The notes below the pieces were generated by a model that saw only the letters and a program-made list of their open reading frames with translations, was not told where the DNA came from and did no database searches. From Candidatus Lindowbacteria bacterium RIFCSPLOWO2_12_FULL_62_27 (GTDB lineage: Bacteria; Lindowbacteria; 2-12-FULL-62-27), in the NCBI GenBank assembly GCA_001784175.1, contig MFPR01000010.1, positions 1,145 to 31,112 of the forward strand: DNA of 29,968 nt, given 5' to 3'. The position numbers and the translations under genes are program-made. Of this stretch, positions 8,273 to 29,968 are shown piece after piece (positions within the stretch are counted from its first letter, which is position 1; every line of letters starts with the position of its first letter).

Positions 8273-9658
8273 GTGGAAAATTCTGATCCGAATTCGACAC
8301 GGCCGGGTCGAGGCCGCCCGGTCCGGTTCTGGGTGATGACCGTTGCCGTCTCCGCAGGCTTGGCGGCCGCGCTCACGGCGTTTCTGGTGAATATCTTCGA
8401 GCGCAAACAGGAGGCGAAAAATCCGTTTTACCGTGTGGTCGAATTGACGGACGAGACCGTCGATCCTGAAATCTGGGGAAAAAATTTCCCGATGCAATAC
8501 GACGGCTACAAGAAAACCGTCGACATGGTCCGGACGCGATTCGGCGGAAGCGAGGCGATGCCCCGCACGCCCCGCCAGGTCGATCCGCGGTCGGTGGTGG
8601 CGCAATCGAAGCTGGAGGAAGATCCGAGACTGAAAAGAATGTGGGCCGGGTACGCGTTCTCCGTGGATTTCCGCGAGGAGCGCGGCCACGCCTACATGCT
8701 TCTTGACCAGATATTCACCGAACGCCAGAAAGTCAAACAACCCGGCACGTGCCTGCATTGCCACGCCTCCATGTACGTGCCCTATAAAAAGGCCGGGGCC
8801 GGCGACCTCATCAAGGGATTCGAAAAGGTGAACCAGATGCCGTACAGCGACGCCAAGGAACTGGCGGTCCACCCGGTCGCCTGCATCGACTGCCACGATC
8901 CCAAAACGATGCAGCTTCGAGTGACGCGTCCGGGATTCATCGAGGGCATTCGCGCCTTCAAGGTTTCGCAGGGAATCGAGGATTACGACGTGAACACGAT
9001 GGCCACCCGGCAGGAAATGCGCACCTTCGTCTGCGGCCAGTGCCATGTCGAATACTACTTCAAAGGCCCCGAGAAACGTCTGGTCTATCCGTGGTCCAAG
9101 GGTCTCAAGGTCGACGACATCATGGCGTACTACGACGAGATCGAATTCAAGGATTGGATGCACAAGGAGAGCGGCGCCAGGACGCTCAAAGCCCAGCATC
9201 CGGAGTTCGAGATGTGGAACCAGGGCATTCATGCGCGGTCGGGCGTCGCCTGCGCCGATTGTCACATGCCTTACAAGCGCGAAGGCGCCATGAAAATCAG
9301 CGACCATCACGTCCGCAGCCCGCTCCTCAACATCAACCGGGCCTGCCAGACCTGCCACAAATGGCCTGAGGAAGAACTGAAAGGCCGGGTCGAGCAGATT
9401 CAGGAGCGCACGTTTCGCCTCCGCAACCTCGCCATGGACGCGCTGATGAATTTGATCGACGACATCAAACGCGACTCGGAGGCCGGCAAACCCCCCGCGT
9501 CGCTGGCGGCGGCCCGCGACTATCAGCGCAAGGCCCAGTTCTATCTCGATTTCGTCGAAGCCGAAAATTCAACGGGATTTCACGCGCCGCAGGAGTCCGC
9601 TCGGATTCTGGGCGAGTCGATCAACTACTCGAGGCTGGGGCAAACCGCATTGCGCTGA
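8273..9658 (+). CDS. nrfA: NrfA, pentaheme cytochrome c nitrite reductase (ammonia-forming)
   Basis: Reduces nitrite to ammonium on the outer face of the membrane, taking electrons from NrfH. GTG start with AAGGAGG 5 bases upstream. 461 aa, the usual length. An N-terminal hydrophobic segment (about 18-40) is an uncleaved anchor or signal. Five CXXCH sites lie at residues 160-164, 204-208, 254-258, 327-331 and 358-362. Landmarks match NrfA: CGQCHVEYYF with its active-site Tyr near 261, LKAQHPEFE (Lys306 and Gln308 of the calcium site), catalytic His320 in NQGIH, and the late GFHAP motif. The active-site heme 1 motif is CLHCH, whereas enteric enzymes have CXXCK there. This His-ligated type is known in some other lineages. 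Both alternatives are functional nitrite reductases in known families. Confidence 0.95.
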   Translation: MENSDPNSTRPGRGRPVRFWVMTVAVSAGLAAALTAFLVNIFERKQEAKNPFYRVVELTDETVDPEIWGKNFPMQYDGYKKTVDMVRTRFGGSEAMPRTPRQVDPRSVVAQSKLEEDPRLKRMWAGYAFSVDFREERGHAYMLLDQIFTERQKVKQPGTCLHCHASMYVPYKKAGAGDLIKGFEKVNQMPYSDAKELAVHPVACIDCHDPKTMQLRVTRPGFIEGIRAFKVSQGIEDYDVNTMATRQEMRTFVCGQCHVEYYFKGPEKRLVYPWSKGLKVDDIMAYYDEIEFKDWMHKESGARTLKAQHPEFEMWNQGIHARSGVACADCHMPYKREGAMKISDHHVRSPLLNINRACQTCHKWPEEELKGRVEQIQERTFRLRNLAMDALMNLIDDIKRDSEAGKPPASLAAARDYQRKAQFYLDFVEAENSTGFHAPQESARILGESINYSRLGQTALR

Positions 9659-12596: not shown

Positions 12597-13208
12597 GTGG
12601 TGAGGGCCCGGCATTTGTTTCAACTGAACCTCGACCTGGGCGGCCGGCCGTGTCTGGTGGTCGGCGGCGACGGCGAGGCGCTGGAAAAGACGGAGCGGCT
12701 GATCGAATGCGAAGCCGACGTGACGCTGGTAAGCCCGATAGTTCTTCCGCGGCTGGAGGAACTGGCGCGCGCCGGGAGACTCCGCTGGGAGGCCCGGCGG
12801 TATCGGCCGGGGGACGAGGCCGGCCGGTATTTTGTGCTCAACTGCGTCAAGACGGACCCGGCGCTGTCGGCGGAACTGTTTCAGCGCTGTTCCGCCGCCG
12901 GCATTCTGATTTCATCCTACGACCAGCCGGAGGCCAGTTTGGCGACGATGGCCGCGCTGGTCCGCGCGGGATCGATGCGCCTGGCGATTTCGAGCGACGG
13001 AGAAAGCCCGGCGGTCGCGCGGAAACTGCGGATCGAGCTGGAGAAACTGCTGGACGACCGCTTCGCGCGCTTTGTCGAATGGGTCGCGGCCTACCGCAAG
13101 AAAATGACGGACGAGGGCGTTCCGCCGGAGGAGCGCAAGCGAAGGCTGCGGGACTTGATGGCCGGCTTCGAAATTTCCGGCACGATCAAATATCCGGAGT
13201 CGTTCTAG
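12597..13208 (+). CDS. Precorrin-2 dehydrogenase / siroheme synthase N-terminal-like protein
   Basis: 203 aa from the GTG at 12597, 10 bases after GGGAGGAAGG and just past the methyltransferase stop; ATGs further upstream overlap the previous gene. CysG N-terminal/Met8p family, which oxidises precorrin-2 to sirohydrochlorin with NAD. The opening LFQLNLDLGGRPCLVVGGD is the usual first strand and turn, and MRLAISSDGESPAVARKLR matches the family's ISS-GGTSP-x-AR motif. The NAD loop reads GGDGEALEK in place of the usual GGG-x-VA-x-RK, and the usual 'NVVDD'-type segment is LNCVKTDP, so it is a divergent member. It may act in siroheme or other tetrapyrrole metabolism. The stop overlaps that of the convergent cobalamin gene. 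Confidence 0.72.
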   Translation: MVRARHLFQLNLDLGGRPCLVVGGDGEALEKTERLIECEADVTLVSPIVLPRLEELARAGRLRWEARRYRPGDEAGRYFVLNCVKTDPALSAELFQRCSAAGILISSYDQPEASLATMAALVRAGSMRLAISSDGESPAVARKLRIELEKLLDDRFARFVEWVAAYRKKMTDEGVPPEERKRRLRDLMAGFEISGTIKYPESF

Positions 13209-13804
13209 TACTCAATCCCCTTCTGCGCGATGATGCCCTCGAGTTTGTAGGGGTGCTTGATCTCCTTCATTTCAGTCACGAGGTTGGCGAGTTCCACGAT
13301 TTCCGGTTTGGCGTTGCGGCCGGTGAGGACGATGTGCACCTTGGGCGGCCGCTGTTTCAAGAAGTCGACGACCGACGCCAGCGGCAGGAACCCATAGTCG
13401 ATCACGTAATTGATTTCGTCCCAGATGACGGTCCGGTAGCGGCCGGACGACACGCATTCCTTGCATTTTTCCCACGTTTCAAGGGTCGTCCGGACATCGA
13501 GGTCCCGGTTGTTGGTGTTCCAGGTGAACCCGGCGCCCATGGTGAAAAAATCGAGTCCCTCGATTTTTTCGGCGATGATCCGCTCTCCATATTTAAAGTC
13601 CTTCGGGCTTTTCATGAACTGTACCACGGCCGCCTTCCATCCGTGGGCGACCGTGCGAAAGGCCATGAGGACCGCAGCCGAGGTTTTGCCTTTGCCGTCG
13701 CCGGTAAAGACCATGACCAGCGACTTGTCCTTTTTCTTCGCGCTGATCTTCATCTTCCGCCGGATCGTCTCCCTTGTCTGATCGTCCTGCTCTTTCGTCC
13801 GCAT
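13205..13804 (-). CDS. cobO: Cob(I)alamin adenosyltransferase, CobO/BtuR type
   Basis: Attaches 5'-deoxyadenosine from ATP to cob(I)alamin, making adenosylcobalamin. 199 aa from the ATG at 13804, with AGGGTG about 6 bases upstream. The P-loop is GDGKGKTSAAVLMAF near residues 36-50. Also visible are VVQFMKSPKDFKYGE, the IWDEINYVIDYG Walker B-like segment and VHIVLTGRNAKPEIVELA, all typical of the family. Length matches CobO. Adenosylcobalamin-dependent enzymes often act in microcompartments and a BMC locus lies 15 kb away, but no such enzyme is in this window. Its stop (TAG at 13207-13205) overlaps the TAG of the convergent gene in a CTAG. Confidence 0.93.
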   Translation of the reverse strand: MRTKEQDDQTRETIRRKMKISAKKKDKSLVMVFTGDGKGKTSAAVLMAFRTVAHGWKAAVVQFMKSPKDFKYGERIIAEKIEGLDFFTMGAGFTWNTNNRDLDVRTTLETWEKCKECVSSGRYRTVIWDEINYVIDYGFLPLASVVDFLKQRPPKVHIVLTGRNAKPEIVELANLVTEMKEIKHPYKLEGIIAQKGIEY

Positions 13805-13848
13805 GACCACACCCTACCAGCAAGCCGCCCCGCAGGGAAGATTGAAAA

Positions 13849-16171: not shown

Positions 16172-16768
16172 ATGCCTCGAAAAATTGCCTGCGCATCGTT
16201 ATCAGGACATTGCTCCCGAATGTACCGCCGCCTCCGCGAGAAAGGTTGGGACATCATCGTCTATTTCAGCGGCCACGGCCTCACCGACCCCGAGGATAAA
16301 TCGAATTACCTTCTGCCCGTCGACGCCAACCCCGACAACGTCTCCGCCACCGCCTACCGCCTCGACGCCCTCTACCGCAACCTCCGCCGGCTCACCGACG
16401 GCAAAATCACCGTTATCCTCGAGGCCTGTTTCAGCGGCCGGACGCCGAAAGGCCAGATCGGCGGCAAGACCAGCGGCGTTGTCATCGTCGAGCCCGGCAA
16501 AAACGCGCCGCCCGGCATCGACATCCTCGCCGCCGCGCACTCCGACCAGGTCGCCAACTGGTACGAGGAACAGCAGCACGGGCTGTTCACGTATTACCTG
16601 ATGCGCGCCCTCCGGGGCGACGCCGACGCCAACGGCGACGGCAAGGTCGTGGGCGCGGAACTGCAAGACTACGTCACGCGCGAGGTCTCGCGCCTGTCCG
16701 ACCGCGTGGGCGTGGCGTATCAGGAGCCGGAGATTATGGTCGCGCCGGATTGGGTGTGGACGGAGTGA
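16172..16768 (+). pseudogene. Caspase-like (metacaspase family) gene lacking its N-terminus
   Basis: Caspase-fold peptidase (clan CD) with the catalytic His in IIVYFSGHG (about residue 35) and the catalytic Cys in VILEACFSGR (about residue 90), followed by LAAAHSDQVANWYEE and a C-terminal EF-hand-like loop, DANGDGKVVGAE (DxNxDG and Glu). The p20 start (first strand with an ALVIGI-type motif and the helix that follows, about 80-100 residues) is missing: the frame begins at 16172 and only about 35 residues precede the His. I see no remnant of it in the other frames up to the pilus gene, so a deletion junction is likely near 16150-16220. It might still be made from the ATG at 16219, but would not fold as a full caspase. 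Neighbouring elements suggest an acquired piece. Confidence 0.75.
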
Positions 16769-17587: not shown

Positions 17588-18076
17588 CCTCTTTTAGTGC
17601 GCCAAGAAAGTTCATCGGCGCTTGTGATAGATAAACACCCGCATAGAGCTTAGCCAGCAATGCGGAACCGAGTCTTGCGCGGCGTCGGGTAACCGACGGC
17701 GTGAAGCGTAGACAGGGAGGGCGCAGGCCGTAACGCAAGTGAATGGATTGAGCCTCGAAAAGTCAACCCTTCCCGAAAGGGAAGCAGTCGTGGAAGCCGA
17801 GTCGCTTATTTGCGCCGAAGGCAATATGAGACGACCGAAACAACTGCAAGGTCGCGTAGTTCCACCGGGGTCGAAGACAACGGCATGCGTGCCAGTGAGA
17901 GCCGATGGGAACTTGGGAGATCCCGTCCGGTCCAGAAAGAGGTAGACGAGTCCGAGGGCAAACCGGAGGGCGAGTCGAAGCCGGAAGGGAAGTCGGATCG
18001 TCCCATAGTACCGCTGAAGGGAAGTAACGCTCCCGGAGGGAAAGGGACGACAAACCAACGCGTGTATGAGGGAACC

Positions 18077-19414
18077 ATGGGAAACCCACAGAGGTTGCCA
18101 ACCATGTCACCGAAACTGGTACGCATAGCGGAGAAGGCGAAACGGGAACCGAACACGGTATTTACATCCCTGGCCCATCTGATGGACACGGAACACCTGA
18201 TGGAAGCATGGGTGAGAATCCGTAAAGATGGGGCAACAGGAGTTGACGGGATGACGGCCGGAGTCTACGGGGAGAAACTGGAAGAAAATCTCCAAGCCCT
18301 GCATGAGCGCCTGAGGAAAGGATCGTACCGCGCGCCGCTGGTCCGCCGCGCCAAGATTCCGAAGGAAGATGGAAGTTTTCGGGAACTTGGGATACCTACG
18401 CTGGAGGACAAGATTGTGCAGAAGGCGGTCGCTATGATTCTGGAAGCCATTTACGAGAAGGATTTCAGGGAGTGTTCGTATGGTTTCCGTCCGGGTCATT
18501 CGGCGCACGAGGCATTGGAGGTTCTCCGGAAAGCGATTTTGTTCGGGAAAGTGAACTGGGTACTGGATGCGGACATCAGCCGGTTTTTCGATGAGATGGA
18601 TCATCGAAAGCTGATGGAAATCGTCCGGCGTCGGGTCAATGATGGGCGAATTGTGCGGCTCATCGGCAAATGGCTCAAGGCTGTAGTGATGACCGAAGCG
18701 GGGATACAACCCCGCGAGCGGGGGACTCCGCAGGGTGGTGTGATCAGCCCGATACTGGCCAACATTTTCCTGCATCATGTTCTGGATGAATGGATGGAGG
18801 ACGTTGTCTACGGTCGAATGTCCGGCGAGTGCCGATACATCCGATACGCGGATGATTTTCTCATCCTATTTCAGAAAGAAGCTGATGCAAGGAGGGTGCT
18901 GGCGGTGTTGCCCAAGCGACTTGGGAAATTCGGGTTGCGATTAAACGAAGGGAAGACAAAGCTCATCCGGTTTGGGCGATTTGCTAAGGAGAAAGAGTCT
19001 CGACAGAATCGAAAGCCGGAAACATTTGACTTCCTCGGATTCACTCACTACTGCGGAATGTCGGGTCATGGAAAGTTTCAGGTCATGCGTCAGACGCAAC
19101 GAAAGCGATTCCAGAAAGCCGTCACGCGAGTTGTGGAATGGGTTAAATCAAACCGGTATCTGCCCCGGAAAGAACAGCATCGCCATCTCTGTAGGGTTCT
19201 GCGTGGACACTATCAGTACTACGGTGTCACGGGAAACCTGCGGAGAATTAAGGGGTTCTTTTACAGGGTGACACGGGCGTGGTGTCAGTGGCTGAGGCGA
19301 AGAAGCCAACGCCACACGCTTTCGTGGGAACGCTTCACGGAATACCTGAAACGATATCCATTACCGATCCCCTGCCTTCCCAAATCCTACGTTCATGCCG
19401 TCGCCAATCCATGA
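18077..19414 (+). CDS. ltrA: Group II intron reverse transcriptase/maturase
   Basis: 445 aa from the ATG at 18077 with GAGGGA upstream. Copies intron RNA into the target DNA and helps it fold and splice. RT blocks in order: DGATGVDGMTAGVY (RT0/1), YRAPLVRRAKIPK, RELGIPTLEDKIVQKAV (RT2), ECSYGFRPGHSAHEAL (RT2a/3), VLDADISRFFDEMDH, GTPQGGVISPILANIFLHHV (RT4), catalytic YADD in RYIRYADDFLILF (RT5), then FLGFTHYC and a maturase (X) domain to VANP. It ends soon after the maturase domain and has no HNH endonuclease. RTs of this type insert at single-stranded or replication-associated targets. The frame continues upstream to 17810 but that part is intron RNA. Confidence 0.93.
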   Translation: MGNPQRLPTMSPKLVRIAEKAKREPNTVFTSLAHLMDTEHLMEAWVRIRKDGATGVDGMTAGVYGEKLEENLQALHERLRKGSYRAPLVRRAKIPKEDGSFRELGIPTLEDKIVQKAVAMILEAIYEKDFRECSYGFRPGHSAHEALEVLRKAILFGKVNWVLDADISRFFDEMDHRKLMEIVRRRVNDGRIVRLIGKWLKAVVMTEAGIQPRERGTPQGGVISPILANIFLHHVLDEWMEDVVYGRMSGECRYIRYADDFLILFQKEADARRVLAVLPKRLGKFGLRLNEGKTKLIRFGRFAKEKESRQNRKPETFDFLGFTHYCGMSGHGKFQVMRQTQRKRFQKAVTRVVEWVKSNRYLPRKEQHRHLCRVLRGHYQYYGVTGNLRRIKGFFYRVTRAWCQWLRRRSQRHTLSWERFTEYLKRYPLPIPCLPKSYVHAVANP

Positions 19415-19425
19415 GTTGGGTTGAA

Positions 19426-19507
19426 GAGCCTCGTGCGGGAAACCTGCATGCGGGGTTCTGTGAGGGGCCGGCGGGGTCTTTAAAGTGCCCCGCCCGGTCT
19501 ACTCGAC
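19426..19507 (+). ncRNA. Group II intron domain V and VI
   Basis: Domain V: GAGCC...GGTTC, a 34-base hairpin with a GAAA loop and the usual GAGCC/GGTTC closing pairs (19426-19459). Domain VI: a strong stem with CGGGG/CCCCG and CCGG/CCGG arms. The branch A lies near the 3' end but its exact base is not certain. Confidence 0.8.
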
Positions 19508-22944: not shown

Positions 22945-24103
22945 GGGTATTCTGTCCCTCGGCGTTTTATTGTTGGGCTTTTCCTCCGCGGGCGCGCAGG
23001 TGACGGAGGTCGATCCTGATCCCAAGGGCGTCGCGTCGGGCGTGTCCGGGCAGGTGTGGGTGCTTGAGCCGGAGGCGTCATCGCCGAAAGCGCTGGCCGA
23101 TTCGGATCCCGTGTTTGAAGGCAGCCGGATCACGTCGGGCGAGGGCGCCTTTGTCGAAATTGATCTGATCGACGGCAGCGAACTCAAGATCGACGAGATG
23201 ACGCAGGTGGACCTGTCGAACGTGGACGCGCAGCCCGAGTCGCTGGAGCGGATGGTGGACCTCTCGATGCTGTACGGGACGCTGCGCGTCTCGGTCCAGA
23301 ACGGATTTTCCGACCGGAGCGTTTTCAAGGTCGTGACGCCCGTGTCGGTGGCCGGCGTGCGCGGCACCGATTTTGCGGTCGAATACGAATCAGAGGACGA
23401 ATCGCAGGTGGACGTATTCGACGGCGAAGTCGTGGTCGGGCAGGAAGGCGCCAAGGAGACAGTCGAATCGGGCGAGTCGTCCCGCGTGGGCCGCGGCAAG
23501 GGCATCACCAAGGAGCGCCTGAAGGAGGACCGGCACGAGCGCTGGGAGCATTTCAAGGAGTCGATGCACGATCACCGGCAGGAGCGCGCCGAATCGGTCC
23601 TGCGTGAAAAGATCGAGCGGGTCCGTGCGGAGAACCCCAACGATCCGCGCTTGGCCGGGCTCGAAAACGCATTGCAAAACGTGTCGAAAGACCGGACCGA
23701 GGCCCGGTCAAAGCTCGAGGCGCGCCGTGAAAAAATGAAAGACCGGCGGGAGGAGCGGCGCGGGCGGATGCGCGAGTTCGCGCAGAAACACGGCCGCGAG
23801 CGATTCGAGGAGGCGCGCAAGTTCCGCGGCGGCGCCATGACGCCGGAGGAGCGAAAGGCCGCGCAGGAAAAAATGGGCGAACGCCGCCGGCAGGCGCGGG
23901 AGAAGGCGGTGGAACAGCATCAGAAGCGCCGGGAGAAAATCAAGGACCGGCGTGAGGAAAAGAAGGATCAGAAACAGGAGGGGCTGAAAGACCGCCGCGA
24001 GAATCGCCAGGACCAGATGAAAGACCGCCGCGATCAGCGCCGCGACAAGATGCAGGACAAGCGCGAGCAGAGGAAAGACACCCGCCAAAAGCACCGGCGT
24101 TAA
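22937..24103 (+). CDS. FecR-domain protein with long charged coiled-coil tail
   Basis: 388 aa. Signal peptide (about 1-20, ending AGA), then a FecR-like beta domain (about 35-165): GVSGQVWVLEP, FEGSRITSGEGAFVEIDLID, GSELKIDEMTQVDLS, LYGTLRVSV, FKVVTPVSVAGVRGTDFAVEY. The end of this block is the conserved FecR motif. The rest (about 170-388) is almost wholly charged (repeats like KDRREE, RRDKMQDKREQRKD), probably one long alpha-helix or coiled coil. It lacks the sigma-factor-binding N-terminal domain and helix of classical FecR, so a regulatory role is uncertain; a structural envelope or periplasmic protein is equally likely. Its stop shares bases with the convergent carbamoyltransferase stop. 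Confidence 0.78.
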   Translation: MNRGILSLGVLLLGFSSAGAQVTEVDPDPKGVASGVSGQVWVLEPEASSPKALADSDPVFEGSRITSGEGAFVEIDLIDGSELKIDEMTQVDLSNVDAQPESLERMVDLSMLYGTLRVSVQNGFSDRSVFKVVTPVSVAGVRGTDFAVEYESEDESQVDVFDGEVVVGQEGAKETVESGESSRVGRGKGITKERLKEDRHERWEHFKESMHDHRQERAESVLREKIERVRAENPNDPRLAGLENALQNVSKDRTEARSKLEARREKMKDRREERRGRMREFAQKHGRERFEEARKFRGGAMTPEERKAAQEKMGERRRQAREKAVEQHQKRREKIKDRREEKKDQKQEGLKDRRENRQDQMKDRRDQRRDKMQDKREQRKDTRQKHRR

Positions 24104-25818
24104 GAGGGTTTCGTCTCCACCACGTACTTCTCCATAAACAGCGCGTCGAGCTGGCTCTGCAGAAACGCGTCGACGCAGTCTTCCGCCGAGCAGACGATGG
24201 GTTCCTCGTGCATGTTGTAGCTGGTGTTGATGAGGATGTTCAGGCGCGAGAGCCTTTCGTATTCGACCAGCATGCGGTGCATTTCGGGCTGTGGGTGTTT
24301 GCGGATGATTTGTGGGCGCGCGGTGTTGTCGACGTGAACGATGGCCGGCGCTTCCTTGCGGCATCGCTCGTTGGCGTAGAGCGTGGTCGTCATGAACTCG
24401 AGCGGGTAAAGGCATTTTTCGTAATCGACGAAATAGTCCTTTAATTTTTCCTCCAGCAAAATCGGCGCGAACGGCATGAACTCGCTTCGATTGAGGCGTT
24501 TGTTCAGCCAGTCGTTCACCGTGGGGTCGGTCGCCTGGTAGAGGATGGACCGGTGGCAGAGCGCGCGCGGGCCGTACTCCATGGGGCCGCGACACCATGC
24601 GACGCATTTGCCCGCCGCCAGCATCCGGGCCGCCTCCAACTCCGGCGCGTCGACGACGCGGTACGAGAGGGCGTGTCGTTCCAATGCGGCTTGGATGGAC
24701 GATTCTGTCATGCCCGGCCCGAAATAGACGTGGTCGAGCCGCCGCGGTCTGGACGTTTCCGGTTCGGCCCTCGCGTGGACGTGGAGGGCGCTGCCGGCCG
24801 CAAGTCCTCCGTCGCCCATGTGCGGATGAATGAACATCTCGTCGACCTGCGGGATTTTTGCGATTTCCTGATTAAGCCGGACATTGGCGAAGACGCCGCC
24901 GGCGAGGCAGATTTTCGCGCGGCCGATCCCCAGTTTCGCGTAGGCGTCCTTCACGAAATCGCAGACGGTCTCCTCGAGACTTTTCTGAACGCCGGCCGAA
25001 ACGTCCTCGCGGGACAGGCCCTTGAGTTTTTCAGTGAGAAACGCGATCTGTGGTTCGCGGTAACGCCCGTAATTGTGAAACCGGAACCGGCCCGGCTCGT
25101 AGCGGATCTGCGACCGGAAGAAGTCAATGGTCCTGTTCGGATCGCCGCGCGCCGCCAGCCCGGTGACCTTGCCCTCGCGCCCCGGTTTAAATCCGAGAAT
25201 TTTGTTGATGTACGAATAATAGAGTCCCGGCGAGTGGTAGAAGGGCACGCGGTTGACCGGCCGCATCCGCGCGCCCTCGCAGAGCGCGACGCGGGAGCAG
25301 AGGCCGTCGCCCGAGGCGTCGACCGTCAGCGCGATCGCGCGGTCCCAGCCGCTCGTGTAGTACGCGGACGCGAGATGCCCGATGTGGTGGTCGACGACCT
25401 TGATCGGCGCGTTCACGCCAAGTTCGGCGAGGCGCCGGCGCGTCTGAAACATCCGCGGCAGAAGAAACATCGACACGTGCGCGGCCAGCACCAGCCGGAT
25501 CCCGAGGTCCGTCCCGAAAAACCAGCGGTCGAGCCGCGTCGACTGTAGAATGGACAGGACCGTTTCGTAAAAGCCAGGATGCGGTTCCCAGTCCCACACG
25601 TATTCGGGAATGTGGATGTAGCTCGCCAGCGCGACGAGATCGACCTCGTGCGGCTTGAGGCCCGACGTCTGAAACGCCTCCCGGATCGACTCGGCCGGGA
25701 AACACGTCGCCAGTTTCCGCCGGTTGTACCGCTCCTCGTTCGAGGCCGCGACGATCTCGCCGTCGACGACCAGCGCCGCCCCGCTGTCATGTTCCGCGCT
25801 CACGCCGAGGACTTTCAT
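24100..25818 (-). CDS. Carbamoyltransferase, NodU/CmcH type
   Basis: 572 aa from the ATG at 25818, which overlaps the upstream stop (ATGA). Transfers a carbamoyl group from carbamoyl phosphate (via carbamoyl-AMP) to a hydroxyl of a sugar or other small molecule, as in NodU and antibiotic O-carbamoyltransferases. N-terminal domain: VLGVSAEHDSGAALVVDGEI, then VVDHHIGHLASAYYTSGWD (paired His), VDASGDGLCS, GREGKVTGLAARG and AKICLAGGVFANVRLNQEI. C-terminal domain: CRGPMEYGPRALCHRSIL (the adenylate-site EYGPRALG-type motif), LNRSEFMPFAPILLEE and LNILINTSYNMHEEPIV. Full length. It follows a membrane glycosyltransferase, so a surface or secreted glycan is the likely target. Confidence 0.92.
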   Translation of the reverse strand: MKVLGVSAEHDSGAALVVDGEIVAASNEERYNRRKLATCFPAESIREAFQTSGLKPHEVDLVALASYIHIPEYVWDWEPHPGFYETVLSILQSTRLDRWFFGTDLGIRLVLAAHVSMFLLPRMFQTRRRLAELGVNAPIKVVDHHIGHLASAYYTSGWDRAIALTVDASGDGLCSRVALCEGARMRPVNRVPFYHSPGLYYSYINKILGFKPGREGKVTGLAARGDPNRTIDFFRSQIRYEPGRFRFHNYGRYREPQIAFLTEKLKGLSREDVSAGVQKSLEETVCDFVKDAYAKLGIGRAKICLAGGVFANVRLNQEIAKIPQVDEMFIHPHMGDGGLAAGSALHVHARAEPETSRPRRLDHVYFGPGMTESSIQAALERHALSYRVVDAPELEAARMLAAGKCVAWCRGPMEYGPRALCHRSILYQATDPTVNDWLNKRLNRSEFMPFAPILLEEKLKDYFVDYEKCLYPLEFMTTTLYANERCRKEAPAIVHVDNTARPQIIRKHPQPEMHRMLVEYERLSRLNILINTSYNMHEEPIVCSAEDCVDAFLQSQLDALFMEKYVVETKPS

Positions 25819-27413
25819 CGGACGTCGTACACCTCGATCCGGCCCATCCCCTTGCGTTTGAGTTCCACCCGCCAATTGCCGCTGCGCATGAAGTAACCCC
25901 AATCCAGGAAAAGGCCTGTCGATGGGTAGACCCGTCCCTCAAACACCTGATCCGGCCGATGCGATTCCATCAGCTTTCGAACGGACGCGTACGGATAGGA
26001 GTAGGTGGCCTGGTATCGGTCGATGACCCAAAGGCCGGGCGCGACCGCCGGCGCGGTGTCGCCTGACGGCACAAGTTCCGCTCTGTTTTTTCCAAGGTAA
26101 TACCGCACCGCCATCGGGTTGGTCGCGTAGACGGTCGCGGAGGCCTCCTGGCCCGCCAGCCATCGGCCGGCGGCCGGCCAGGCCGAGGACACACGGGTTT
26201 CCTGCCACGCGCTGAATGCGCCGAGGGCGACGAGCGCCGAAATCAAGCCGGCCACGGATTTTCTAGCCCAGTCAGGCACGATCATCGAATTAAACCAAGC
26301 GGCATATTCCATCCATCCGAAAGCCGAAACGATAGCAAAAAACGGAATGCTTGTCATGACCGCCCTCGGCCCGTCCCCCCGCGTCACGAGACTGAATCCC
26401 ATGAGCGGCACCCACGCTAAAAGGCATACCAGCCGCCGGACCGGACAGCGCGTCCGGACCGTGGCCCAGAGGCCCAAGGCCATCCCGCCGGCCCACCAGA
26501 GCCAGTCGAGATAAATGTAGGATTGAAACATGCCGGCGTGCAGCCGGAACATCGCCCCCACCGGATTTTCGCCCGCCGGCACGTCCAGGAACAGCCGGGT
26601 CCAAAACCCCTGAAAATAGGTTTGGATCCCCTCCGGCAGGTCGCCTCCTCTCCATATATATATACGGTAGGGCAACTCGATGAGGGCGAGCGGGACGATC
26701 ATCCCGGCGACGAGGATCGCCGCCCGCGGCAGGCTCCGGCGGCAGGACACGAAATCCCAGAGAAACACGAGCGGCAGGATCAGGACGCACCTGTAATTGA
26801 CCCCGATCGCCACGCCGTACGCAAGGCCAACGCCGAACAGCAGCGCGCCGGACAGCGCCGTGGCGCCGATGGGGGCGTCCCGCCGGAACCGGAGGGCCAG
26901 CGCGGCGTGGAGGAGGACGGCGGCGGTCATGAAAAAAATCGCGTCGGCCTCCGCAAGCTGCGACCGGCTGTACATCACGTGCGCGCGGGAGATGGCGCAA
27001 AGCAGCGCTGCGAGGATGGCCGTGCCGGCGGAGAAATATCGCGCGGTCCACAGCCCGACGATCGCGATCGTCAGCGTGCCCGTCACGGCCGCCCAGAGCG
27101 CCCCCGACCATTCATCGCGCAGGCCGGTGACGATTGAGAAGGCGGCCATGAAAAATCCATGGAGATGTTTGGGCGTGAATCCCGGCGGCAGGCCGTCCAT
27201 CTCGCGGATGAGAAACCCGGAATTCAGCCGCCCGTCGCGCCAGGCGTCGAGGATCGCGCCGCGTTTTTCGAAGACGTCGGTCCAGAATCTGACTTCCAGC
27301 ATGTAATGCGGCTCGTCGTAGTGGCAGAATCCGTGGCCGGAGAGGTTCCAGGTGCGAAGGAAAAGTCCGAGACAGCAGGCCGCTAAAACGCCGGCGATGA
27401 GTTTTGGGCGCAG
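25815..27413 (-). CDS. GT-C-fold membrane glycosyltransferase (no standard start codon)
   Basis: Inner-membrane glycosyltransferase of the GT-C (PMT/ArnT/DUF2029-like) type, about ten helices. Using only the ATG at 27302 gives 495 aa but cuts off the first helix and loop. In frame upstream, the DNA reads LIAGVLAACCLGLFLRTWNL, then HGFCHYDEPHYMLE: a membrane helix followed by the DE-type acidic motif of GT-C enzymes. This frame is open back to the aldehyde dehydrogenase stop (27417-27419), and the only plausible start is CTG at 27413. The protein would then be about 532 aa. No ribosome binding site is seen. The lumenal C-terminus is beta-like (VFEGRVYPSTGLFLDWGYFM). It likely transfers a sugar from a polyprenyl carrier. 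Confidence 0.75.
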   Translation of the reverse strand: MRPKLIAGVLAACCLGLFLRTWNLSGHGFCHYDEPHYMLEVRFWTDVFEKRGAILDAWRDGRLNSGFLIREMDGLPPGFTPKHLHGFFMAAFSIVTGLRDEWSGALWAAVTGTLTIAIVGLWTARYFSAGTAILAALLCAISRAHVMYSRSQLAEADAIFFMTAAVLLHAALALRFRRDAPIGATALSGALLFGVGLAYGVAIGVNYRCVLILPLVFLWDFVSCRRSLPRAAILVAGMIVPLALIELPYRIYIWRGGDLPEGIQTYFQGFWTRLFLDVPAGENPVGAMFRLHAGMFQSYIYLDWLWWAGGMALGLWATVRTRCPVRRLVCLLAWVPLMGFSLVTRGDGPRAVMTSIPFFAIVSAFGWMEYAAWFNSMIVPDWARKSVAGLISALVALGAFSAWQETRVSSAWPAAGRWLAGQEASATVYATNPMAVRYYLGKNRAELVPSGDTAPAVAPGLWVIDRYQATYSYPYASVRKLMESHRPDQVFEGRVYPSTGLFLDWGYFMRSGNWRVELKRKGMGRIEVYDVR

Positions 27414-27416
27414 ATG

Positions 27417-28901
27417 TTAGACGATTCGAAAATAATCGACCAGCGTGCAGCGGCGCTCGCGCGTGAAGGTCGCGGCGGTCGTGAATCCCTCTCCGGTCCA
27501 GCCGGCGATCGAGAGCGTCGTGTATCCTTCGCCGCCGAACCCCAGTCCGGCGAGCGAGGGGCCGTTCTTGACGAAGATGTTGGCGTTGGAGGCGCGGGCC
27601 ATGTCGGACAGCCGCGCGATGTTGGTCGAGTGCATCGTAAAGGTGTGGCGGAACCGGTGTTCGGCCAGAATGGCCCATTCCTTGGCCTGGTCGTAATCCT
27701 TGCAGCGCACGATCGGCGTGATGGGCATGAGCTGTTCGGCCATGACGAGGGGATGATCCCAGTCGACTTCCAGAAACGCGTGCGTGATGCCGGCCGGCGC
27801 CCGGATGCCGGCCTGGGCCAGAATCTTGACCGCGTCCTTGGCGATGAGTTCCTTGTTCACCCGGGGATGCCGTTCGCCCGAGCCGGAATCCTCCACGATG
27901 ATGAGCTTGGTGAGCCGTTCGGCGTCCCGGCCCTTGATCTCGACCGATCCGTTTTTTCCCATCTCGGCCTTGAAGTCGTCGCAGATGGACGCGACGCAGA
28001 ATATTTCTTTTTCCCCCGTGCAGAGCGCGCAGTTGTCGAACTGCGCGCCGAACACCGTATCCTTGGCGGCCTTGGGCAGCACGCACGTTTCGTCGACGAC
28101 CACGGGCGGATTGCCGGGCCCGGCCGCGAATACCTTCTTGCCGGACGACATCGCGACCCGGACGATCTCGCGCCCGCCGGTGACCAGCGTCGCGTCGACG
28201 CCGGGATGGTTCATGAGTTTCGTCCCGCTCTCCTGACTCGGGTTGCCGATCGCGCAGACGAGATGTTTCGGCCCCCCGGCCGACTCGATCGCGAGTTGAA
28301 GAATCCGCGCCGCTTCGCAGGACACCTCTTTCGCGTTCGGATGCGGATTGATGATGACGGCGTTGCCGGCCGACACCATTCCGATCGAGTTGTTGACCAC
28401 GGTCGACGGCGGGTTGGTGGTCGGCGTGATGGACACCATGACGCCGTAGGGCGCTTTTTCGACAAGGGTCAGCCCGTGGTCGCCGGTGAATGTGACGGGA
28501 TGGATGATCTCGGGTCCGGGCGTCTTGCGCGCGGCGAGTTCCACTTTCTGCATCTTGTCCGGCATTTTCCCGAATTTGGTTTCGCTGACGGCCAGTTCCC
28601 CGAGGCGCCGCGCGTTTTCAAGAGCGGCGGCGCGCATGGCCGCGACGATTTCGAATCTCTTTTCCAGCCCCAGCGCCATGAGTTCCCGCTGCGCCTGCCG
28701 GGCGGCTTTGGCCGCCGCGTCGGGATCGTCGAACGTCGAATCCCCGCCGACGGCCTTGCGGGGCCGAAAGTCCATGCTGGGCGAGGTTGCGCGGCCGGGC
28801 GCGGAGGAAAAGATCTTGCCTCCCGTGCCGACCGTGTAGCGCTGGCGCACCTTCTCCATCACTTTACCGACCACCTGATGAATTTCCTGCTCGGATGCCA
28901 T
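27417..28901 (-). CDS. BMC-associated CoA-acylating-type aldehyde dehydrogenase (PduP/EutE-like)
   Basis: 494 aa, ATG at 28901 with GGAGGA 5 bases upstream. Oxidises an aldehyde to acyl-CoA with NAD in a microcompartment. Residues 5-22 (QEIHQVVGKVMEKVRQR) are an amphipathic encapsulation-type helix, followed by a flexible linker. The nucleophile region is QFDNCALCTGEKEIF, with Cys294 the best candidate and Cys291 nearby. Other motifs: GVMVSITPTTNPPSTVV (cofactor-entry region), GNAVIINPHPNA, the TGG nucleotide loop and VKNGPSLAGLG. Full length. The next gene upstream is a BMC shell protein, 59 bases away, so a microcompartment role is well supported. Confidence 0.92.
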   Translation of the reverse strand: MASEQEIHQVVGKVMEKVRQRYTVGTGGKIFSSAPGRATSPSMDFRPRKAVGGDSTFDDPDAAAKAARQAQRELMALGLEKRFEIVAAMRAAALENARRLGELAVSETKFGKMPDKMQKVELAARKTPGPEIIHPVTFTGDHGLTLVEKAPYGVMVSITPTTNPPSTVVNNSIGMVSAGNAVIINPHPNAKEVSCEAARILQLAIESAGGPKHLVCAIGNPSQESGTKLMNHPGVDATLVTGGREIVRVAMSSGKKVFAAGPGNPPVVVDETCVLPKAAKDTVFGAQFDNCALCTGEKEIFCVASICDDFKAEMGKNGSVEIKGRDAERLTKLIIVEDSGSGERHPRVNKELIAKDAVKILAQAGIRAPAGITHAFLEVDWDHPLVMAEQLMPITPIVRCKDYDQAKEWAILAEHRFRHTFTMHSTNIARLSDMARASNANIFVKNGPSLAGLGFGGEGYTTLSIAGWTGEGFTTAATFTRERRCTLVDYFRIV

Positions 28902-28960
28902 GCGGTCCTCCTACCCAGACCCCCTCTGCCCGCCTGAAACTACTTCTGAGTAGGCCTTGT

Positions 28961-29251
28961 TCAGCCGCCTTCGGTGGTGTGGATCGGGAAGATCGGGTCG
29001 AGATCGCCGTGCGGTCTCGGAATCACGTGAGCCGACACCAGCTCGCCCACCCGCTCCGCCGCCGCCGCGCCCGCATCCACGGCCGCCTTACAGGCCGCCA
29101 CGTCTCCGCGAACAAGGGTCGTCACCAGCCCGGATCCGATTTTTTCATACGCGACCAGTTTCACCTTCGCCGCCTTCACCATCGCGTCAGAGGCCTCGAT
29201 CAACGCCACCAGCCCCCGCGTCTCAATCATGCCCAACGCTTCCATGCTCAT
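28961..29251 (-). CDS. BMC-domain shell protein (PduA/EutM-like hexamer)
   Basis: 96 aa, single BMC domain (residues 3-85), the building block of microcompartment facets. [20 protein letters not shown] and [20 protein letters not shown] are hallmark segments; the pore-loop motif is KIGSG (37-41), as in PduA-type shells. The domain is followed by a short C-terminal tail rich in Pro/His/Asp ([16 protein letters not shown] in part). A purine-rich GGGGGAGG ribosome site lies 11 bases upstream. It is the first gene of the apparent operon with the aldehyde dehydrogenase, glycosyltransferase and carbamoyltransferase. Only one shell gene is visible; pentamer and trimer shell genes would be needed elsewhere. 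Confidence 0.95.
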
Positions 29252-29288
29252 CTGCCGCTGTACCTCCCCCTTTAGGGTTGAATGTAAT

Positions 29289-29334
29289 CGCTCGAAGACT
29301 GGCTATCATACGCTCGAAAAGAGTGTCAAGGCAA
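29289..29334 (-). promoter_or_regulatory. Putative BMC operon promoter with direct repeats
   Basis: On the minus strand, TTGCCT (29334-29329), an 18-bp spacer and TATGAT (29310-29305) form a plausible promoter. CGCTCGAA on the plus strand at 29289-29296 and 29311-29318 is a direct repeat with a 22-bp period, i.e. two helical turns, flanking the -10; it may bind a regulator. Confidence 0.4.
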
Positions 29335-29360
29335 TCATGTGCGCATCTCGGGAAAGCGCA

Positions 29361-29385
29361 GGCACATCGCGGTCTGGAATCGCGG
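29361..29385 (+). pseudogene. Remnant matching the N-terminal ATPase motif of the downstream Hsp70-like gene
   Basis: 25 bases that match 29826-29850 at 22 positions. Read in the same frame both give GTSRSGIA, the phosphate-binding loop of an actin/Hsp70-type fold, and all three differences fall in third codon positions. The surrounding sequence does not continue the similarity, and the frame is closed after about 20 residues. It looks like a decayed duplicate of the neighbouring gene. Confidence 0.4.
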
Positions 29386-29472
29386 GTGCCCTGTTCGCTT
29401 TCGCGGTCATTTCTCGTTTACTCAAATAGAAAGACACAAAAGCAGATGCGGGTTCTCAAGGAGGCGGGGCAA

Positions 29473-29667
29473 ATGAAAAAAGAAGATCATTACGATCTGC
29501 TTCCACACTTTCTAGCATGGATAATCACAACGGCGATCAACGTTGTCGCGGCCATCATGGGTTGGTTGATTGCCGCTTCGATTTTAGCGCATTGGTACAT
29601 GTTTCTATTTGTGGTCATCTTTATTTTCACGTGTGTCAAATGCGCCCTCAAAAACGCAAGGCAATGA
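29473..29667 (+). CDS. Small two-helix membrane protein
   Basis: 64 aa, ATG at 29473 with AAGGAGG 7 bases upstream (better than the in-frame ATG at 29446). Two long hydrophobic helices (about 12-32 and 36-58) with a short loop, cytoplasmic-type basic end (KCALKNARQ). The gene is AT-richer than its neighbours. No family recognised. It lies divergent from the BMC operon and ahead of the Hsp70-like gene, so it may share their regulation. Confidence 0.6.
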   Translation: MKKEDHYDLLPHFLAWIITTAINVVAAIMGWLIAASILAHWYMFLFVVIFIFTCVKCALKNARQ

Positions 29668-29777
29668 ACAGGACGAGCAACGTGATTTTTGCGGCCGGCA
29701 TGTTCGGTTTTTCGCTTCCCGTTCGTTTTCCTTAATAAGAAGGGCAACAGAGCCCAAAACGAAAGGGAGGCGGCAAC

Positions 29778-29968
29778 ATGCAGTTTTTCAAACCCAAAAA
29801 TCAGACGGCGATCGGGATCGATCTTGGCACATCACGGTCCGGAATTGCGGCGGCGACGGTGGACAAGGAAAAGGGGCTGGACGTTCAAGCGCTTGCCGTC
29901 GGCGAGGGCAGTTCAGGCGGGGAGTCGTATCGGATCCCTTCCGTCGTCGTGTGCAGTAAAACCACGGG
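29778..29968 (+). CDS. Hsp70/actin-fold ATPase, 3' partial
   Basis: ATG at 29778 with GGGAGG 7 bases upstream; the gene runs off the right edge after 63 codons. The N-terminus AIGIDLGTSRSGIAAATVD is the phosphate-1 loop of the actin/Hsp70 superfamily, and YRIPSVVVC resembles the PSVV segment of DnaK. It could be an Hsp70-like chaperone or an EutJ-type protein of BMC operons, since a BMC locus lies next to it; MreB or PilM relatives are less likely given the DnaK-like PSVV. The family cannot be settled from the piece seen. Confidence 0.7.
   Translation, partial: MQFFKPKNQTAIGIDLGTSRSGIAAATVDKEKGLDVQALAVGEGSSGGESYRIPSVVVCSKTT

Follow-up and report, generated by a model that had tools for sequence, protein, structure and literature searches.

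Gene content of the window

The window, that is, the whole stretch of DNA analysed, comprises 29,968 nt of Candidatus Lindowbacteria bacterium RIFCSPLOWO2_12_FULL_62_27 (GCA_001784175.1, MFPR01000010.1 positions 1,145-31,112, forward strand; GTDB lineage Bacteria; Lindowbacteria; 2-12-FULL-62-27). The assembly (G000) is 4.39 Mb in 44 contigs and 94% complete. It was compared with two genomes of the same family, G001 (88% complete) and G002, each representing another genus, and statements on whole genomes rest on family searches. Four minus-strand genes, including a microcompartment (BMC) shell gene, lie towards the right end of the window.

28961..29251, minus strand: BMC-H shell protein, EutM/PduA-type (PF00936 E=8e-30; NCBIfam EutM 159.7 bits, cut-off 133)
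27417..28901, minus strand: CoA-acylating aldehyde dehydrogenase (ALDH), BMC type, with an N-terminal helix resembling an encapsulation peptide (EP), MASEQEIHQVVGKVMEKVRQRY (PF00171 E=4e-28; PRK15398)
25815..27413, minus strand: GT-C-type membrane glycosyltransferase (PMT PF02366 E=1.5e-5, barely above cut-off)
24100..25818, minus strand: NodU/TobZ-type O-carbamoyltransferase (CT; PF16861 E=3e-54, PF02543 E=5e-38)
29252..29968, no strand: intergenic region reaching the contig end; it contains a sigma-70-like match and the first part of an open reading frame that resembles Hsp70/MreB

This gene order had been proposed by a sequence-only reading of the window, and all four products matched family models, with the starts of GT-C and CT corrected. 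For GT-C, no ATG, GTG or TTG was found in the window genome ahead of the conserved YDE motif, and the CTG at 27413 aligned with the CTG starts of G001 and G002, where the N-terminus was also conserved. The probable start is CTG 27413, giving a predicted product of 532 aa (27413-25815). This codon lies 3 bp past the ALDH stop in the window and overlaps the ALDH stop as CTGA in G001 and G002. CT starts at ATG 25818, overlapping the GT-C stop (ATGA); a TTG reading frame reaching 25902 was too long and was replaced by this start. The very tight spacing or overlap described earlier was thus confirmed for both junctions. The gap between BMC-H and ALDH was 59 bp, containing an RBS-like AGGAGG.

The shell protein had been called PduA-type, which holds as to kind, but among NCBIfam models EutM was the closest; its family matches place it among the basal BMC-H proteins of the EutM/PduA kind. 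ALDH reached 549 bits against the NCBIfam model PRK15398 for BMC-type ALDH (cut-off 403), and its C294 was invariant in an alignment of 6 sequences. The nearest solved relatives of CT were the novobiocin, GdmN and TobZ O-carbamoyltransferases.

Contig C10 (31112 bp) and the window finish at the same right-hand position, leaving 717 bp upstream of BMC-H, so that the window by itself cannot show whether a signature enzyme is missing there. Contamination or misassembly of C10 was rejected, because its GC was similar and the same arrangement occurs in the genera of G001 and G002. Upstream of BMC-H, a sigma-70-like match on the minus strand covers 29334-29305; the 3 promoter-like matches found were not clearly above the 1.3 (sd 1.3) expected by chance. 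Promoter and terminator scans were both near chance level, and operon limits were not set by them. Divergent from BMC-H, an open reading frame start (29778-29968, plus strand; IGIDLGTSRSG) is cut by the contig end; its Hsp70/MreB-like label was assigned by eye, the 63 residues giving no family match.

Elsewhere in the window, an NrfA-type cytochrome c552 nitrite reductase was located at 8273-9658 (PF02335 E=7e-136) and a small caspase-like protein of the EACC1-associated type at 16172-16768, upstream of a group II intron (17631-19507). Rfam D1-D4-6 matched at 17631-17880 and another intron domain at 19424-19507; the reverse transcriptase/maturase of the intron occupies 17810-19414. The intron has a GC3 below that of its neighbours, and it was apparently missing from the syntenic region of G002.

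The remaining shell genes and enzymes at two distant sites

The rest of the genome, where the sequence-only reading had advised looking for a signature enzyme and further shell genes, yielded both on contigs C17 and C1.

C17: EutJ (PRK15080, 326.7 bits)
C17: PduL (PF06130 E=2e-67)
C17: three BMC-P (PF03319)
C17, adjoining the BMC-P genes: RpiB (PF02502 E=4e-49; NCBIfam rpiB)
C17: DeoC, deoxyribose-phosphate aldolase, DERA (TIGR00126 304 bits, cut-off 117)
C1, in the order PduS - BMC-T: PduS-like protein (PF01512, RnfC_N, SLBB)
C1: tandem BMC-T with a TIC motif

The genes on C17 run in the order EutJ - PduL - BMC-P - RpiB - BMC-P - BMC-P - DeoC. Three PF00936 matches were obtained in the genome, namely the BMC-H on C10, which is the only BMC-H of the assembly, and the two halves of the single tandem BMC-T; the three PF03319 matches were all on C17. 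The shell set therefore consists of one BMC-H, one BMC-T and three BMC-P, and BMC-H and BMC-P never occur at one site. The C1 site lies at 92 kb in a contig of 293 kb, the C17 site at 74 kb in one of 215 kb; both are more than 70 kb inside their contigs, indicating that the three-way split is not a contig-edge effect. There was one BMC-type ALDH, the remaining ALDH matches being weak (E>=6e-5).

DeoC carries an N-terminal extension of ~80 residues whose first helix was strongly amphipathic (matched by 0.3% of shuffles), and the extension looks like an encapsulation peptide, as would be expected for a cargo enzyme. By the same shuffling, the N-terminal helices of ALDH (6% of shuffles) and PduL (18%) did not pass the 5% chance level, and their amphipathicity was set aside as evidence.

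Searches of the three family genomes, each with a positive control, detected neither EutB nor a glycyl radical enzyme. The search for the diol dehydratase PduCDE gave no match, but its control search was equally silent. DeoB and PNP genes were encoded in all three genomes.

It had also been suggested that a cobalamin adenosyltransferase in the window (13205-13810) might serve the same system. This link was rejected: the enzyme is of the CobA/CobO/BtuR type, some 13.6 kb separate its gene from that of ALDH, the DERA route is B12-free, G002 likewise has the adenosyltransferase in this position on the contig, and no B12-dependent signature enzyme was found, with the silent PduCDE control noted above.

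Conservation within the family

The split arrangement recurs in the other two genomes. In G001, contig C242 opens inside BMC-H (34 C-terminal residues; 90% identity over 31 aligned) and continues with ALDH - GT-C - MaoC-like - CT. The MaoC-like dehydratase gene (L092:3391-3810) was seen in G001 only. In G002, contig C143 opens inside ALDH, followed by GT-C and CT. Both genomes again carry the PduS-BMC-T and EutJ-PduL-(BMC-P-RpiB-BMC-P-BMC-P-DeoC) runs on other contigs, although in G001 the contig ends just past the PduL start. DeoC and BMC-P were not detectable in G001, an absence that probably reflects this contig end. Where present, the orthologues of ALDH, PduS, BMC-T, DeoC, RpiB, PduL and EutJ were ~73-92% identical. 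Recurrence in three genera indicates that the arrangement predates them.

The ALDH-GT-CT linkage was likewise common to all three genera. Judged from gene order, the join is a lineage-specific operon fusion and not an accident of one genome, and the three genes probably form one transcription unit. However, FecR, a GAF/GGDEF gene and further window genes also share a contig in G002, so the join is embedded in a wider block of synteny, and that it is conserved does not by itself demonstrate functional coupling.

Relatives outside the family

For ALDH, the best 80 named relatives retrieved were compared at the level of GTDB species. Shell genes adjoined ALDH in all 80, and BMC-H and BMC-P were both present in 71 of these loci. 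DeoC and/or RpiB occurred in 42 loci (both in 38), whereas GT-C, CT and FecR occurred in none. The four-gene order thus has counterparts in G001 and G002, as ALDH-GT-CT, and is absent from these 80 relatives. A full locus in relatives with the last two genes confined to this genome had been named as the sign of an accidental join; loci of that kind were found outside the family, while inside it the join is common to three genera.

The closest ALDH among those retrieved was that of locus L111 from Candidatus Mcinerneyibacteriota (57% identity; support 99 in a quick tree). L111 is a single locus with the order PduL-BMC-H-BMC-P-ALDH-PduS-BMC-T-RpiB-3xBMC-P, and its contig ends without DeoC. For CT, a related carbamoyltransferase was examined in 12 other genomes, and GT-C adjoined it in none when about 1.5 kb flanks were searched. 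A literature search for a BMC with a carbamoyltransferase and a glycosyltransferase returned nothing relevant.

Proposed assignment to the SPU type and alternative readings

In the 2021 BMC catalogue, pfam01791 and pfam02502 are common to every subtype of the sugar phosphate utilization (SPU) type, and SPU BMCs were proposed to process deoxyribose phosphate from DNA breakdown via acetaldehyde (PMC8217296). In the first description of the type, in 2014, Atribacteria members had PduS though DeoC does not need cobalamin (PMC4207490). In the window genome, the C17 DeoC is a pfam01791 aldolase and the C17 RpiB belongs to pfam02502; BMC-H, BMC-T and BMC-P are all present across the genome. The acylating ALDH falls in the PRK15398 subfamily with its nearest relative in an SPU-like locus, in a quick tree that separates SPU loci only partly from other loci. 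The SPU type was assigned because the aldolase and RpiB define it.

One main locus holding BMC-H and BMC-P together was not found, the genes being distributed over C10, C1 and C17. Published consolidated BMC loci allow satellites. Strictly, the published term satellite does not fit C10: BMC-H and BMC-P share no site in this genome, and the assembly's only BMC-H is the one on C10. The earlier proposal of a satellite locus whose signature enzyme lies elsewhere was therefore right as to the enzyme, with DeoC, RpiB, PduL, EutJ and the three BMC-P on C17 and PduS and BMC-T on C1, but not as to the strict term. Locus layout is a criterion of classification, not of function. On gene content, the BMC-H and ALDH pair is very probably one of three dispersed sites that jointly encode a single SPU metabolosome, with the neighbouring GT-C and CT biochemically unrelated to it.

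In such a metabolosome, deoxyribose 5-phosphate from nucleoside breakdown (PNP, DeoB) would enter the shell, where DeoC would be the dedicated source of acetaldehyde. The putatively EP-tagged window ALDH would convert acetaldehyde to acetyl-CoA, from which PduL would produce acetyl phosphate. PduS and the cysteine-bearing BMC-T may carry electrons across the shell, helping NAD+ regeneration, and RpiB would isomerise pentose phosphate. The facets would be tiled by the window BMC-H and the vertices capped by the three BMC-P. In this family, BMC-H-ALDH appears to have come to sit directly upstream of the GT-C/CT pair, whose most likely role is to modify an envelope glycan. Co-transcription of all four genes is probable, but by this assignment they are biochemically unrelated; GT-C and CT would most likely be carried along in the transcription unit without being parts of the organelle.

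The retention of the ALDH-GT-CT order with very tight spacing in three genera, together with the conserved CTG that couples GT-C to the ALDH stop, could also be read as a sign that the four window genes are a functional unit, in which GT-C and CT build or carbamoylate a glycan or sugar and ALDH handles an aldehyde released from it. We consider this very improbable. Neither glycan gene was near any of the best 80 named ALDH relatives, GT-C was not found within the flanks searched at the 12 other carbamoyltransferase loci, and both genes belong to the wider syntenic block with FecR, GAF/GGDEF and further genes. GT-C also diverges much faster (45-50% identity to G001 and G002) than ALDH (82-92%), with CT at 72-75%; the MaoC-like gene is inserted into the unit in G001; and the genome encodes a dedicated acetaldehyde source, DeoC. 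The glycan-linked aldehyde offered earlier was rejected as unsupported. A looser connection, in which the lineage has functionally wired a nucleic-acid-sugar metabolosome to envelope glycan carbamoylation, is highly doubtful as well; under it, either one signal would prompt production of the only facet shell protein together with ALDH and the enzymes acting on the glycan, or the glycan pathway would feed the organelle.

Two further readings keep the SPU enzymes and change what they do or how many compartments they serve. The same dispersed microcompartment might run in reverse: ALDH would serve as an NADH sink by reducing acetyl-CoA to acetaldehyde, which DeoC would condense with glyceraldehyde 3-phosphate to store carbon. 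This direction was proposed for Atribacterota SPU-type loci (PMC6281690, citing Nobu et al. 2016), and the gene content would be the same either way. Sequence cannot tell direction, but a catabolic direction sits better with PduL, PduS/BMC-T, DeoB and PNP, and we regard the reverse direction as unlikely. It is very unlikely that the three sites belong to more than one microcompartment, whether two different ones or partly decayed ones. The sites are unlinked, and FRAG ('fragmented') microcompartments are often without an obvious enzyme (PMC8217296); against this, G000 has a single BMC-H, BMC-T, BMC-P triplet and BMC-type ALDH, L111 and other single loci hold most parts together, and identity between genera is high with no signs of decay. 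A single dispersed SPU metabolosome, probably working catabolically, accords best with these observations.

Comparison with known systems

The system resembles published SPU BMCs (PMC4207490, PMC8217296) in its DeoC (pfam01791), RpiB (pfam02502) and acylating ALDH, and the Atribacteria SPU loci in its PduL and PduS. It differs in that the genes are spread over three distant sites, none of them with BMC-H and BMC-P together, and in that BMC-H-ALDH is joined to glycan genes. L111 shares PduL, BMC-H, BMC-P, ALDH, PduS, BMC-T, RpiB and 3 more BMC-P; unlike the present system, it is contiguous, with no DeoC on its contig and no glycan genes. EUT and GRM BMCs are set apart by their EutB ammonia-lyase and glycyl radical enzyme, respectively, neither of which was found here. 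The window CT has both domains of the NodU/TobZ/GdmN O-carbamoyltransferases (PF02543 and PF16861), whereas its position beside GT-C was seen, among the loci examined, only in this family. An apparent fusion of RpiB and DeoC in one 480-aa open frame was observed at L213 (G027:C26); such a fusion was reported for Marinimicrobia SPU loci (PMC4207490).

In FRAG BMCs, shell genes occur in up to six places with no signature enzyme evident (PMC8217296). Our system is like them in having shell genes at several sites, three BMC-P genes and an ALDH adjoining a shell gene; unlike the published types, it has the SPU enzymes DeoC and RpiB beside the three BMC-P. A comparable case is the unrelated genome G014 (one contig, 3.29 Mb; L098-L103, L219), in which BMC genes lie at about eight sites and comprise BMC-H x2, BMC-P x3, PduS-BMC-T, ALDH and an EP-extended DeoC; by this content it is a fragmented SPU-like system. 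Fragmented shell genes themselves are known; the present case adds an SPU enzyme set encoded together with the three BMC-P genes of such a BMC. Where a contig ends alongside, as in the window, locus-based BMC typing can mistake a core piece for a glycan-linked oddity. The family and G014 both combine fragmented shell genes with a putatively EP-tagged deoxyribose-phosphate aldolase in the same genome, which suggests a testable functional assignment, the use of deoxyribose phosphate, for at least some fragmented BMCs.
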